DNA from: an uncultured Coriobacteriaceae bacterium
GTDB taxonomy: Bacteria > Actinomycetota > Coriobacteriia > Coriobacteriales > Coriobacteriaceae
Reading direction: 5' to 3'
Length of the DNA: 64,000 nt
NCBI GenBank assembly: GCA_944322305.1
Contig: CALUOP010000002.1
Span: 1 to 64,000 of the forward strand
The notes under the pieces are model-generated. The model was not told where the DNA came from, did no database searches, and saw only the letters and a program-made list of their open reading frames with translations. This document shows, one piece after another, positions 2,396 through 56,805 of the stretch (positions are counted from its first letter, which is position 1; every line of letters starts with the position of its first letter). Both the position numbers and the translations under genes were made by a program.

Positions 2396-4684
2396 CTACA
2401 GCGCGCCCGGCACTGCCGTGGTGCCTGGGGCGAGGTTGGGGTTGGTCTCGTTGGCCTCGGTCTGCTGGGACAGCGTGAACACCGGTTCGCCGTTGTCAAA
2501 CAGCGCGCGGTACTGCATGGCCCACAGCTGGTTGTACAGCTCGGTGGCCAGGCTGTCGTCCTCCTGCCCGTTGAGGTGCCACACGCCGTCCGCGCCCTGG
2601 TAGCCGATCACGTTCACCAACGGCAGCTGCTTGCGCAGCGCAAGCTCGGCCTCCTGGCTCTCGGTCAGCGGCGCGCCGATGGCCTGCATCATGAGCGCGG
2701 CCAGGTAGTTGGTGCTCGTGTCGATCTGCTGGCTGGTCTGCGCGTTGCCCGCCACGTCGTAGTTGGCCCACACGAAGTACTGCGTGTGCCACAGGCGCTC
2801 GGTGTGCGTGCCCTCGTCCTCGCCGGTGAACCACAGGTCGTTGTAGGTGTCGGGGAAGCTGGGCTGGTGGTCGCCGAAGAACACCACCACCACCGGCCGG
2901 TCGAGCTCGCGCAGCTCGTTGATGAACTCCTCGAGGTCGCGGTCGGACTGCTCGATGAGCGAGAGGTACTCGTTAACCTCCGGGTTCTCCTCGCCGTCGA
3001 TGGCGTAGTGCTCGAGCTTGGAGGAGGGGATCAGGCCGGTGTCGTAGCCGGAGTGGTTCTGCATCGTCACGTCGAAGATGAACTGCGGATCCGAGCTCGA
3101 CTGCAGCTGCTCGAGCACCTTGTCGTAGGTGGAGCCGTCGGTCACCATGCCGCGCAGGGTCTCGGCGCCCTCGAAGTCGTCGATGCTGAGGAAGTTGTCA
3201 AAACCCAGGTCCCGGTACACGTTCTCGCGGTTCCAGTTGTTGGCGTGGTTGGGGTGCATGGCGGTGGTGGTGTAGCCCATCTCGCTGAACTGCTTCACCA
3301 GGGAGGGGACGGCGCGCTGGTTGTACACCATGTAAGGGTACAGGCCCGTGCCCATGTAGGCCATGGAGCTGCCGGTGAGGAACTCCCACTCGGTGTTGCA
3401 GGTGCCGCCGCCGTAGGCCGAGACGTACAGGTCGCCGCGGAACAGCGTGTCCTGCAGGCTCTTGAAGTACTGCGGGCCCTCGTAGCCGGCGTGCATGTTC
3501 TGGTAGATGGACAGGTCCGAGAAGGTCTCGTTCATGACCACCACCACGCTGGGCTTGGTCTCGGAGAACTGCTGCTCGGCGGCGGCGCGGTCGGGCGAGG
3601 CGCCCAGCTCGGGGTCCTCGGCGTAGTCAGCGGCCAGCTCCTCGCGGATGGTGTCGGTCTCGTCGGCGTCGTAGCCCTTGGGCTTTTGCGGCACCATGAG
3701 CTGCGCGTTGGAGATGAACGAGGGGAGGAACCCCTGGCGGTAGTAGCTCTCCAGCGGCCGCCAGGTGTACACCTGGATCGAGAGGGTGTGGTAGTAGTCG
3801 ATAAGCGTCACGTGCGCGGTCACGCCGGCGAGAAGCGCCAGGCCCACGAGCGCGTTGACGGCGATGGCGCGCCTGCGGCGGGGCGCCTTGGCGGGCGCGG
3901 GGCGCTTGGCGTGCAGGCCGATGCCCTGAGCGGCGGCGTTGGCGCCCTGGGCCTCAGCGCCGGCGTCCGCGCTGCCCGCGGCCAGGCGTTGGGCCTTGGC
4001 AAGGGAGCCGAGCGGGGTGGTCAGCGTGACGGCGCCGGCGAGAAACACCAGGCTGTAGAGGCAAAACGCCGTGAGGCTGTAGGTGTAGCCCGTGCCCGCC
4101 ACGGCTGCGGCGGTGTTCAGGGCAAACAGGTCACTCGGGGTGATGGGCATGGTTTTGAAGGTGATCACGAAGTACTGGGCGATACCCACGAACCACAGCG
4201 CAACGGCAACGGCCGCGCTGGGCGAGCCGTGGCGCTGCGTGAGGAAGAAGAGTCCCGCCTGCACGGCCAGGATGAGACAGGCCTCGAGCAGTAGGCACAG
4301 CGGGTACATGTAGGTGAGGTCGTGGTTCGAGGGGATCTCGAGCGCCAGCGTGGTCATGACGGCGCCCAGCACCAGGGCGATAAGCGCCACGGCGAGCGGG
4401 TGGTCAAACGAGCTCAGGCGCTTGACCACGGCGGCGCGGTTGAAGCTCGCGCACGCGGCGCCGGCGAGCGCGGCGGCCGCGAGCACCGAGGAGATAAGGT
4501 CGTTGGCCACCAGCCCCAACGCGCTCCACACCACGAGAAACACCTGGAGCGCGGTAAGGATGGCGCCCCACACGGTGCCGGAGACGGTAAGCTTGCCGCG
4601 GCCTGCGCGATGGGCGCGCACGGCGAGAGCAAAGCTGGCGACGGTGGCGACCAGCGAGAGGGTAAAGGCTATCGTTGGGATCAT
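2396..4684 (-). CDS. LTA synthase-like membrane sulfatase/phosphoglycerol transferase
   Basis: This 762-residue protein has a multi-pass N-terminal membrane part (about eight segments within residues 1-315, with a basic loop KAPRRRR before the last one). An extracellular alkaline-phosphatase/sulfatase fold domain follows at about 380-710. Motifs typical of LtaS/MdoB enzymes are visible: MNETFSDLS near 383, GGTCNTEWEFLTG near 430 with the likely catalytic Thr, HPNHANNW, and GDHQPSF near 605. Such enzymes transfer glycerol-phosphate or similar groups to cell-surface glycans or lipids. I start at 4684 because AAGGAG lies 11 bases upstream. An in-frame ATG at 4729 would add 15 residues without a ribosome site. 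The substrate is not known. Confidence 0.85.
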   Translation of the reverse strand: MIPTIAFTLSLVATVASFALAVRAHRAGRGKLTVSGTVWGAILTALQVFLVVWSALGLVANDLISSVLAAAALAGAACASFNRAAVVKRLSSFDHPLAVALIALVLGAVMTTLALEIPSNHDLTYMYPLCLLLEACLILAVQAGLFFLTQRHGSPSAAVAVALWFVGIAQYFVITFKTMPITPSDLFALNTAAAVAGTGYTYSLTAFCLYSLVFLAGAVTLTTPLGSLAKAQRLAAGSADAGAEAQGANAAAQGIGLHAKRPAPAKAPRRRRAIAVNALVGLALLAGVTAHVTLIDYYHTLSIQVYTWRPLESYYRQGFLPSFISNAQLMVPQKPKGYDADETDTIREELAADYAEDPELGASPDRAAAEQQFSETKPSVVVVMNETFSDLSIYQNMHAGYEGPQYFKSLQDTLFRGDLYVSAYGGGTCNTEWEFLTGSSMAYMGTGLYPYMVYNQRAVPSLVKQFSEMGYTTTAMHPNHANNWNRENVYRDLGFDNFLSIDDFEGAETLRGMVTDGSTYDKVLEQLQSSSDPQFIFDVTMQNHSGYDTGLIPSSKLEHYAIDGEENPEVNEYLSLIEQSDRDLEEFINELRELDRPVVVVFFGDHQPSFPDTYNDLWFTGEDEGTHTERLWHTQYFVWANYDVAGNAQTSQQIDTSTNYLAALMMQAIGAPLTESQEAELALRKQLPLVNVIGYQGADGVWHLNGQEDDSLATELYNQLWAMQYRALFDNGEPVFTLSQQTEANETNPNLAPGTTAVPGAL

Positions 4685-20924: not shown

Positions 20925-21218
20925 ATGGGAGTGAAGGCAGAGGAGACGGTAACGTTCGCATATGACGAGTTCGTCAACTACCTGCGCGCCAAGACGCGTA
21001 TTTTTATGGAGTACGACGGGCACGAGTACTACCTCACCCACACCGACGGCTACTGGCGCGCGCAGGACTGCGCCAAGCTGAACGAGAAGCAGCACTTCAC
21101 CGACTGCTCCGAGCTGGTAACTACGCTGGCCGAGTTCTTGGAGCTCCCGTGGCTGGACGATAAGAGCGTCAAGGACGTCTTCGACGACGCCACCTTCTAC
21201 GAGTCCATCCAGGAGTAA
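20925..21218 (+). CDS. Small conserved-looking protein of unknown function
   Basis: This 97-residue, acidic, probably cytoplasmic protein is rich in aromatic residues (EYDGHEYYLTHTDGYWRAQD). It has a helical C-terminal half (LVTTLAEFLELPWLDDKS). I do not recognise the family. The coding sequence is convincing: AAAGGAG upstream, normal codon use and a terminator-like hairpin directly after it. No partner genes nearby suggest a role. Confidence 0.7.
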   Translation: MGVKAEETVTFAYDEFVNYLRAKTRIFMEYDGHEYYLTHTDGYWRAQDCAKLNEKQHFTDCSELVTTLAEFLELPWLDDKSVKDVFDDATFYESIQE

Positions 21219-21258
21219 CACGCGCATCTGACCCGAGCGCATCGAACGTGAGGGAACG

Positions 21259-21330
21259 AGGTCGGCCGGTAAGGAACCCGAAATGTGCCCGATATCACAT
21301 TTCGGAACCCTTACCGGCCGACCTCTTTTT
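21259..21330 (+). terminator. Two-level hairpin, copy 1 (terminator-like)
   Basis: The outer stem of 16 bp (21259-21274 with 21309-21324) encloses a 3-by-3 internal bulge and an inner stem of 10 bp (CCGAAATGTG with CACATTTCGG). The loop is CCCGATAT. A CTTTTT run follows, so it can end transcription of the upstream small gene. Its bulge, inner stem ends and loop are repeated, with compensatory changes, on the opposite strand at 21381-21452. Confidence 0.8.
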
Positions 21331-21380
21331 GCTGTGTAAGCTGGATTGAGATGCTGGGTGACGTGCTGCCGCGCCTGAGA

Positions 21381-21452
21381 GAGGGGCTGGGCGACAAGAG
21401 TTCCGAATTTTGATATCGGGCAAAATTCGGGTTCCTTGTCGCCCAGCCCCTC
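21381..21452 (-). repeat. Two-level hairpin, copy 2, opposite orientation
   Basis: The outer stem of 18 bp (21381-21398 with 21435-21452) encloses an inner stem of 10 bp (CCGAATTTTG with CAAAATTCGG). Read on the minus strand the loop is the same CCCGATAT as in copy 1, and AAGGAACCCGAA precedes it as in copy 1. The outer stem sequence differs completely from copy 1 while the pairing is kept. Confidence 0.75.
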
Positions 21453-21487
21453 GTGTTGCGTAAAGGGGCAGATGCGCTTCTCGGGGG

Positions 21488-21640: not shown

Positions 21641-23509
<1,869 letters not shown>

Positions 23510-25748: not shown

Positions 25749-26792
25749 ATGCAAACGCTCCGCTCTTCCTGGAAAGGCCTGCTGTTCTGCCTGGCCATCT
25801 CCATCCCCGCCTGGCTGTTCGGCCAGCGGTTCGAAGTCATTGGCGGCCCGGTCTTCGCCATCCTCATCGGCATGGGGCTTGCGCTTGTCGTTCCGGCGCG
25901 TGCTTCTCGCCCGCTCGAGCCCGGTGTGAAGTTCACCAGCAAAAAGATCCTTCAGTACGCGGTGGTGCTGCTCGGCTTCGGGCTCAACCTCTCGCAGATC
26001 GCCCAGGTGGGTACCACCTCGCTGCCCATCATCGTCTCCACCATCGCCACGTCGCTGGTGATCGCGTTCGTGCTGTCCCGCGTGCTCAACATCCCCGGCA
26101 AGATCTCCACGCTCGTGGGCGTGGGTTCCTCAATCTGCGGCGGCTCGGCTATCGCCGCCACCGCGCCGGTCATCGACGCTGACGACGAGGAGATCGCCCA
26201 GTCCATCAGCGTTATCTTTCTGTTCAACGTCATCGCGGCGCTGATCTTTCCCACGCTCGGCAGCGTGCTCGGGCTTTCCAACGAGGGGTTCGGCCTGTTC
26301 GCGGGCACCGCGGTGAACGACACCTCGTCGGTCACGGCCGCAGCCGCCGCGTGGGACGGCATGCACCCTGCCGCGAACACGCTCGACGCGGCTACCATCG
26401 TCAAGCTCACGCGAACCCTGGCGATCATCCCCATCACGCTCGCGTTGGCCGCCTGGCAGCTGCGTCAGGCCAAGCGCGCCGCCGCGGCGGGCGAGGGCTC
26501 GGGCGAGGCCGCCGGCACCTTCGACCTCAAGAAGATCTTCCCGTTCTTCATCGTGTTCTTCGTCCTTGCCAGCGTGGTCACCACGGTCTTCGCGCTGCCA
26601 GCGGCCGTGACGGCGCCCATCAAAGAGCTCAGCAAGTTCTTCATCGTCATGGCCATGGCCGCCATCGGCTTCAACACCAACATCGTGAAGCTGGTGCGCA
26701 CAGGCGGCAAGCCCATCCTCATGGGCGCCTGCTGCTGGGTGGGTATCGCCGCGGTGAGCTTGGGGATGCAGCACGTTCTGGGCATCTGGTAG
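25749..26792 (+). CDS. yeiH: YeiH-family putative sulfate/anion exporter
   Basis: This 347-residue protein has about ten membrane helices. Family motifs are visible: [49 protein letters not shown] and [12 protein letters not shown]. YeiH proteins (UPF0324) are linked to sulfur-compound stress by their LysR neighbour, but their substrate is not firmly established. The divergent LysR gene and the repeat-bearing intergenic region support local regulation. Translation starts at the ATG at 25749 with GAGAGG upstream. Confidence 0.88.
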
Positions 26793-35730: not shown

Positions 35731-35765
35731 ACGGGTTGGTTGGGGACGTGTTCCAACCAACCCTG
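35731..35765. repeat. GGTTGGTTGGGGACG hairpin fragment
   Basis: GGGTTGGTTGG near 35734 is complementary to CCAACCAACCC near 35754 across a short loop containing GGACGTGTT. It is a compact member of the GGTTGGGGACGG intergenic family seen at 16.5 kb. Confidence 0.5.
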
Positions 35766-56734: not shown

Positions 56735-56805
56735 AGGGCGTCCAGCCGACACGGGTTGAAACGAACACGTCCCCATCCAACCCATCCAACCCGTTGCCGT
56801 GCCCC
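56735..56805. repeat. Partial GGTTGGGGACG-family element
   Basis: GACACGGGTTGAAACGAACA and CGTCCCCATCCAACCCATCC match the right half of the element at 16488-16573 (GACACGGGTTGAAAC is identical). The left half is missing. Apart from this, 56545-56899 holds no feature I can name. Confidence 0.5.

Follow-up and report, generated by a model that had tools for sequence, protein, structure and literature searches.

Identity of two facing hairpins between a small ORF and a glmS-like gene

Between two plus-strand genes of an uncultured Coriobacteriaceae bacterium, two long hairpins face each other across 55 nt. This arrangement raises a question of what these hairpins are, and an original prediction made from the letters alone had considered them to be not simple terminators, offering a new family of structured intergenic elements, a protein-binding RNA hairpin or a REP-like unit instead. 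We analyzed the pair in its window, a stretch of 64,000 nt (contig CALUOP010000002.1) to which all plain coordinates refer, in the genome to which the window belongs (G000, a draft of 2.35 Mb) and in comparison genomes that are drafts as well. The gene upstream of the pair is a 97-aa ORF (20925-21218, plus strand) without a Pfam family above the cut-off, and about 40 nt lie between its stop codon and the start of the first hairpin. The gene downstream (21641-23509, plus strand) is glmS-like and combines SIS domains with a glutamine amidotransferase domain.

Copy 1 (21258-21325, plus strand) folds into a two-tier hairpin and scores 88.0 bits with the covariance model described below. Its outer stem of 17 bp (21258-21274 with 21309-21325) is followed by an AAC/AAC internal loop (21275-21277 and 21306-21308), a 10-bp inner stem (21278-21287 with 21296-21305) and the loop CCCGATAT (21288-21295). 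A terminator-like U-tract, TTTTT (21326-21330), stands immediately 3' of this copy, and a 50-nt spacer (21331-21380) leads to its convergent partner. Copy 2 (21381-21452, minus strand; 88.5 bits) is antisense, in front of glmS, and folds in the same manner, with the outer stem at 21452-21434 and 21399-21381, the internal loop at 21433-21431 and 21402-21400, the inner stem at 21430-21421 and 21412-21403, and the same loop CCCGATAT at 21420-21413.

The folding energies were -52.1 kcal/mol for copy 1 (z = -11.6 against shuffles) and -54.2 kcal/mol for copy 2 (z = -11.2); both hairpins thus exist where they had been predicted, with z values below -11. The shared core with its variable triplet, AAGGAACCCGAA-NNN-TGCCCGATATCA, was also found as described, with two exact occurrences in the window, one per strand; none would be expected by chance, and shuffled window sequences contained none. 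The triplet difference between the inner stems (ATG/CAT versus TTT/AAA) had been read correctly. The outer stems had been called perfect and devoid of common sequence. Perfect pairing holds for copy 1, but copy 2 has one G.U wobble among its 19 pairs. The claim of unrelated sequences has to be given up, as the arms of the two outer stems are 58% identical and, across the family, the inner ten pairs follow the consensus GGGCGATAAG. The hairpin pair is bracketed, at 21222-21234 and 21465-21477, by an inverted repeat of 13 nt (GCGCATCTGACCC and GGGGCAGATGCGC, 92%); other hairpin pairs did not regularly show such bracketing.

A family of about 50 two-tier palindromes in two sister species

A search of G000 that allowed the core three mismatches at most gave 27 copies, and the reversed control gave 0. 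A covariance model was built on the alignment of these 27 pattern-found copies. With this model, at least 47 copies were accepted in G000 and 9 in G003, a congener (sister species) represented by the uncultured Coriobacteriaceae MAG CALULH01. Both counts are lower bounds because some first-look candidates went unscored. The original prediction had staked itself on further copies in relatives, and the nine copies of the sister species supply them. G002 holds one remnant, cut by the contig start, at a site orthologous to copies of G000 and G003, and no element was found in G001.

We also checked how far the family extends. Among 299 genomes of the order searched with the covariance model, strong matches were obtained only in G000 and G003, and a weak one in G286. 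The exact core pattern was found only in CALULH01 among 84,980 species genomes, a collection from which the window genome's own records were possibly left out, and viral contigs contained no exact core. No Rfam family exceeded its gathering score; the sub-threshold matches were miRNA and sRNA models only, which are the ones that fit any long hairpin. A literature search found nothing on palindromes in Coriobacteria. Apparently, this family of some 50 two-tier palindromes in one Coriobacteriia bacterium and its sister species has not been described before.

Stems change in pairs around a near-invariant cap

In the element, about 17 bp of outer stem lead to a symmetric internal loop (AAC/AAC). 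Beyond it, an inner stem of 10 bp carries a loop of 8 nt with the consensus CCCGWTAT, which reads CCCGATAT or, less often, CCCGTTAT. Pairing is near-complete at columns 6/7-22 with 57-72/73 and in the 10-bp inner stem, and drops towards chance just outside; the size of the element is therefore nearly fixed at about 68 nt. The cap is better conserved among copies (mean identity 77%) than the outer arms (52%). Twelve columns show no variation in the 27 aligned copies, and every one of them belongs to the cap, between the two arms of the internal loop.

Performing a covariation test on 26 pairs in 27 sequences, we find that 96.9% of the cells pair and that double changes occur at 22 of the 26 pairs. 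The covariation score was 0.698, compared with 0.208 (sd 0.016) for shuffles, and none of the 500 shuffles reached the observed value. When the partner was slid, the score was at most 0.171. At five ortholog pairs of G000 and G003, 20 of 135 base pairs differ, and 8 of these differences are compensated on both sides. Thus, both orthologous sites and paralogous copies conserve the structure, either through selection or through a copying process. A covariance-model search of Coriobacteriia genomes and a covariation test had been suggested beforehand; both turned out positive, and the expectation of a structured intergenic family with a near-invariant tip and covarying stems proved sound. In the stems, G.U and A.C mispairs stand at 26:26 in the full-length copies and at 16:11 in the strong copies. 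As G.U is not clearly favored over A.C, these ratios do not single out RNA, rather than DNA, as the selected form.

A copying process could keep such palindromes perfect mainly by mutation and with little selection, if template switching during replication copied one arm onto the other. The outer stems are indeed free to vary and yet remain paired. Moreover, the whole AAC/AAC mismatch has turned into three perfect pairs in 4 of the 48 full-length copies (L079 3194, L094 3145, L100 3216 and L108 3259), and this is what correction of an imperfect palindrome by template switching would be expected to produce. However, the mismatch is kept unpaired in about 44 of the 48, the loop hardly varies, the outer stem ends sharply at about 17 bp and the copies show a strong bias in their position relative to genes. 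A blind correction process does not explain the retained mismatch, loop, stem length and placement, and we consider it very unlikely to be the main cause.

Most elements follow stop codons on the strand of the gene

To describe the placement, genes were called by our own simple codon-usage caller, and 56 copies were examined. Every copy is intergenic (0 of 56 inside genes). In 42 of the 56, the preceding gene lies on the same strand as the element (binomial p = 2e-4), and these copies have a feature of intrinsic terminators, namely, a stable G+C-rich hairpin just after the stop codon. The distance from stop codon to element is 3-151 nt with a median of 33.5, and it stays within 60 nt in 35 of the 42 co-directional copies. 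The remaining 14 copies, copy 2 of the window among them, are not co-directional with the preceding gene. Close copies on opposite strands are ordered plus-then-minus in 12 of 12 groups (11 in G000, one of them a triple, and 1 in G003) and never minus-plus, and many of these groups sit between convergent genes. At five places, one of them in the window, the second member of a pair precedes the downstream gene in antisense orientation.

The 8 nt past the 3' foot contain on average more T on the strand of the element (2.54) than on the other strand (1.50; p = 3e-4). A T-run follows some copies, including copy 1, but five or more T in these 8 nt were seen in only 5 of the 56, and most copies are without a strong U-tract. 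The elements further differ from intrinsic terminators in that their loop, internal loop and size are conserved. In place of the pair, the G003 site orthologous to that of the window has a hairpin with a T-run (AGAACCAGTGGTCACGACCACTGGTTCTTTTT) of ordinary terminator-like appearance. The placement, the orientation, the T bias and this substitute hairpin in G003 together favor a function at gene ends, though they do not prove termination. As the cap might have entered the loop of a terminator that was already there, we also looked for empty sites at about 12 element loci in G003, where the intergenic DNA is too diverged for exact insertion boundaries.

The position just after stop codons would also suit a 3'-UTR RNA element with a tip that binds a protein or is cleaved by RNase III; such an element would be a processing or stabilization signal and not a terminator. 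Conservation is highest in the cap, which holds all the invariant columns, a helix of 27-30 bp would suit RNase III, and the U-tract is missing from most copies. On the other hand, the stems lack a clear G.U preference, and some copies are antisense or lie between genes that end elsewhere. We regard such a signal as an unlikely explanation of the family.

The consensus outer stem carries an abundant 10-mer as an inverted pair

The consensus of element columns 13-22, GGGCGATAAG, is a variant of a 10-mer, GGGCGAKAAG, that is abundant in the genus. We counted this 10-mer 462 times in G000 and 748 times in G003; its reversed control gave 19 and 16. Members of the genus contain 178-748 copies per genome and other genera of the family about 10-80, while the reversed control reaches at most about 30 per genome. 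Counts were compared with expectation from third-order composition in 1.9 of the 2.3 Mb of G003, where GGGCGAGAAG occurred 508 times (22 expected) and GGGCGATAAG 119 times (4.3 expected). These 627 places show no strand skew, 219 of them are intergenic, and their extended form is CGGGCGAGAAGCGC. In a second family of the Coriobacteriales, GGGCGAGAAG alone is present in about 110-800 copies in genera g18, g54, g59, g65 and part of g56. The window itself has 22 copies of GGGCGAKAAG on both strands, at 4375, 10813, 10849, 18850, 19304, 35690, 41972, 51058, 52308, 53883, 54198, 55805, 58156, 59297, 61235 and 62345, and, on the minus strand, at 25903, 32135, 34418, 34460, 42888 and 57492.

Allowing one mismatch to GGGCGAKAAG, the 5' arm matches in 19 of 48 copies and the 3' arm in 14 of 48; other offsets in the 5' arm match in 0-1 of 48. 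The element is thus, in its consensus, an inverted word pair around the cap.

Inverted uptake sequences of Neisseria (DUS) and Pasteurellaceae (USS) act as Rho-independent terminators (PMC2397512). The inverted-DUS terminators of Neisseria are the closest parallel of the element in its proposed function. As with DUS and USS, a short word is over-represented genome-wide in hundreds of copies on both strands, and its inverted pairs form the arms of hairpins at gene ends. Unlike in those systems, the two words of the element are separated by a 34-nt conserved cap with an inner stem of its own, most copies carry only a degenerate word, an uptake role of the word is putative, and the host belongs to the class Coriobacteriia. 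A ComEC-type competence protein is encoded in all four genomes of the genus; the ComEC-type family is widespread. To our knowledge, uptake-signal-like words of this kind are known only from Neisseriaceae and Pasteurellaceae, and in the literature we found nothing on uptake signals in Olsenella and nothing relevant to the 10-mer.

A RAYT-like gene has a repeat of its own

G000 and G003 each have a single copy of a Y1 transposase gene, which follows the phosphoglycerate mutase gene at the same site in both; G001 and G002 have none. Its product is REP_Tyr_transpos-like, with a score below the cut-off of that model. The co-occurrence in two of four genomes, those that carry the element as opposed to those with none or one, prompted us to examine the element as the REP of this RAYT-like gene. 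If so, the element would be a mobile REP/BIME-like DNA palindrome moved as a single-stranded hairpin by the Y1 (HUH) transposase, the internal loop and the loop would be recognition features, and the 3' placement would reflect where insertion is tolerated. The elements do resemble REPs, BIMEs and REPINs in being dispersed intergenic palindromes, often in inverted pairs, and E. coli REPs likewise need a conserved stem mismatch (PMC8266576). The lack of strand preference among mispairs agrees with mobility, too.

However, the palindromes that flank the RAYT-like gene in G000 (C4:265091) are GGGGACGTGTTCC repeats, and the nearest element (C4:257131) is about 8 kb away; being flanked by a different palindrome, the gene is a poor candidate for the mover of the element. 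The definition of REP/RAYT systems includes a GTAG- or GTGG-type tetranucleotide 5' of the hairpin (PMC6006769, PMC8266576), and no conserved tetranucleotide was seen in columns 1-5 of the 48 full-length copies. Of 67 genomes of the family, 55 have Y1 genes, whereas strong element copies occur in only two genomes, and the copies, with their mean outer-arm identity of 52%, are far from near-identical. In contrast to REPs, the stems vary while the tip is fixed, with a strong bias to the direction of the upstream gene. The element is not a classical REP, and its spread as a mobile palindrome of this type appears improbable to us. The predicted label "REP-like" therefore fits insofar as the element is a dispersed intergenic palindrome, and it fails on the missing tetranucleotide and on the RAYT-like gene, which has another repeat.

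Integron attC sites were considered as a further candidate and set aside: in an R-box, the AAC would pair with GTT, but it is unpaired on both arms of the element. ERIC, of about 126 bp, is a long intergenic imperfect palindrome; compared by description only, the element is likewise intergenic, palindromic and dispersed.

The GGGGACGTGTTCC repeat is probably the RAYT-like gene's own REP. There are 11 exact copies and one GGGGACGTGCTCC in G000. Within palindromes, it was noted in the window at 35742-35754 (plus strand), where it sits in GGTTGGTTGGGGACGTGTTCCAACCAACC, and at 56763-56774 (minus strand), and also at L145 2002-2075. Other repeats were observed in G003. A GGGGACGGGTA-type repeat is found at 48-61 places, and GTTTGGTGTG occurs 63 times in 1.9 Mb, always intergenic and with conserved flanks GGCCCGCTTTCTGTTTGGTGTGGCC, as a dispersed repeat family. 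Another structured repeat, GGGCTTATCGTCCCGGCGCAGTTCTGCAG...GATGATAAGCCC, is intergenic, measures about 96 nt and lies at L090 7772-7866 (minus strand), L086 3283-3377 and L109 3334-3429. It gave 23 blastn matches in G003, several of them close inverted pairs, and no Rfam match in L086 or L090.

Proposed function and meaning

We propose, with about as much confidence as doubt, that the element is a gene-end hairpin, either a terminator or a 3'-end barrier, made from an inverted pair of the 10-mer and a conserved cap. As RNA, the hairpin of about 68 nt would lie in the 3'-UTR of the preceding gene and would terminate transcription or protect the 3' end; convergent pairs would act as a block on either strand. 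An inverted pair of GGGCGAKAAG would have given rise to the body of the outer stem, in the way that Neisseria terminators derive from inverted DNA uptake sequences. A specific contact presumably keeps the cap (AAC/AAC, the 10-bp inner stem and the CCCGWTAT loop) near-invariant, and its ligand could be a protein or another nucleic acid.

A wider scheme can be drawn, to which we attach only a small chance. Coriobacteriales of at least two families would have an uptake-signal-like word, (C)GGGCGAKAAG(CGC), and, in this genus, inverted pairs of it would have become capped gene-end hairpins with a conserved tip read by a dedicated protein. Given the 10-mer in two Coriobacteriales families, uptake-signal-like words are perhaps not confined to two proteobacterial families. 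The element family also offers a natural case in which about 50 paralogous hairpins combine paired change in the stem with a fixed tip, and what the tip, the mismatch and the stem each contribute to 3'-end function may therefore be readable from the sequence.
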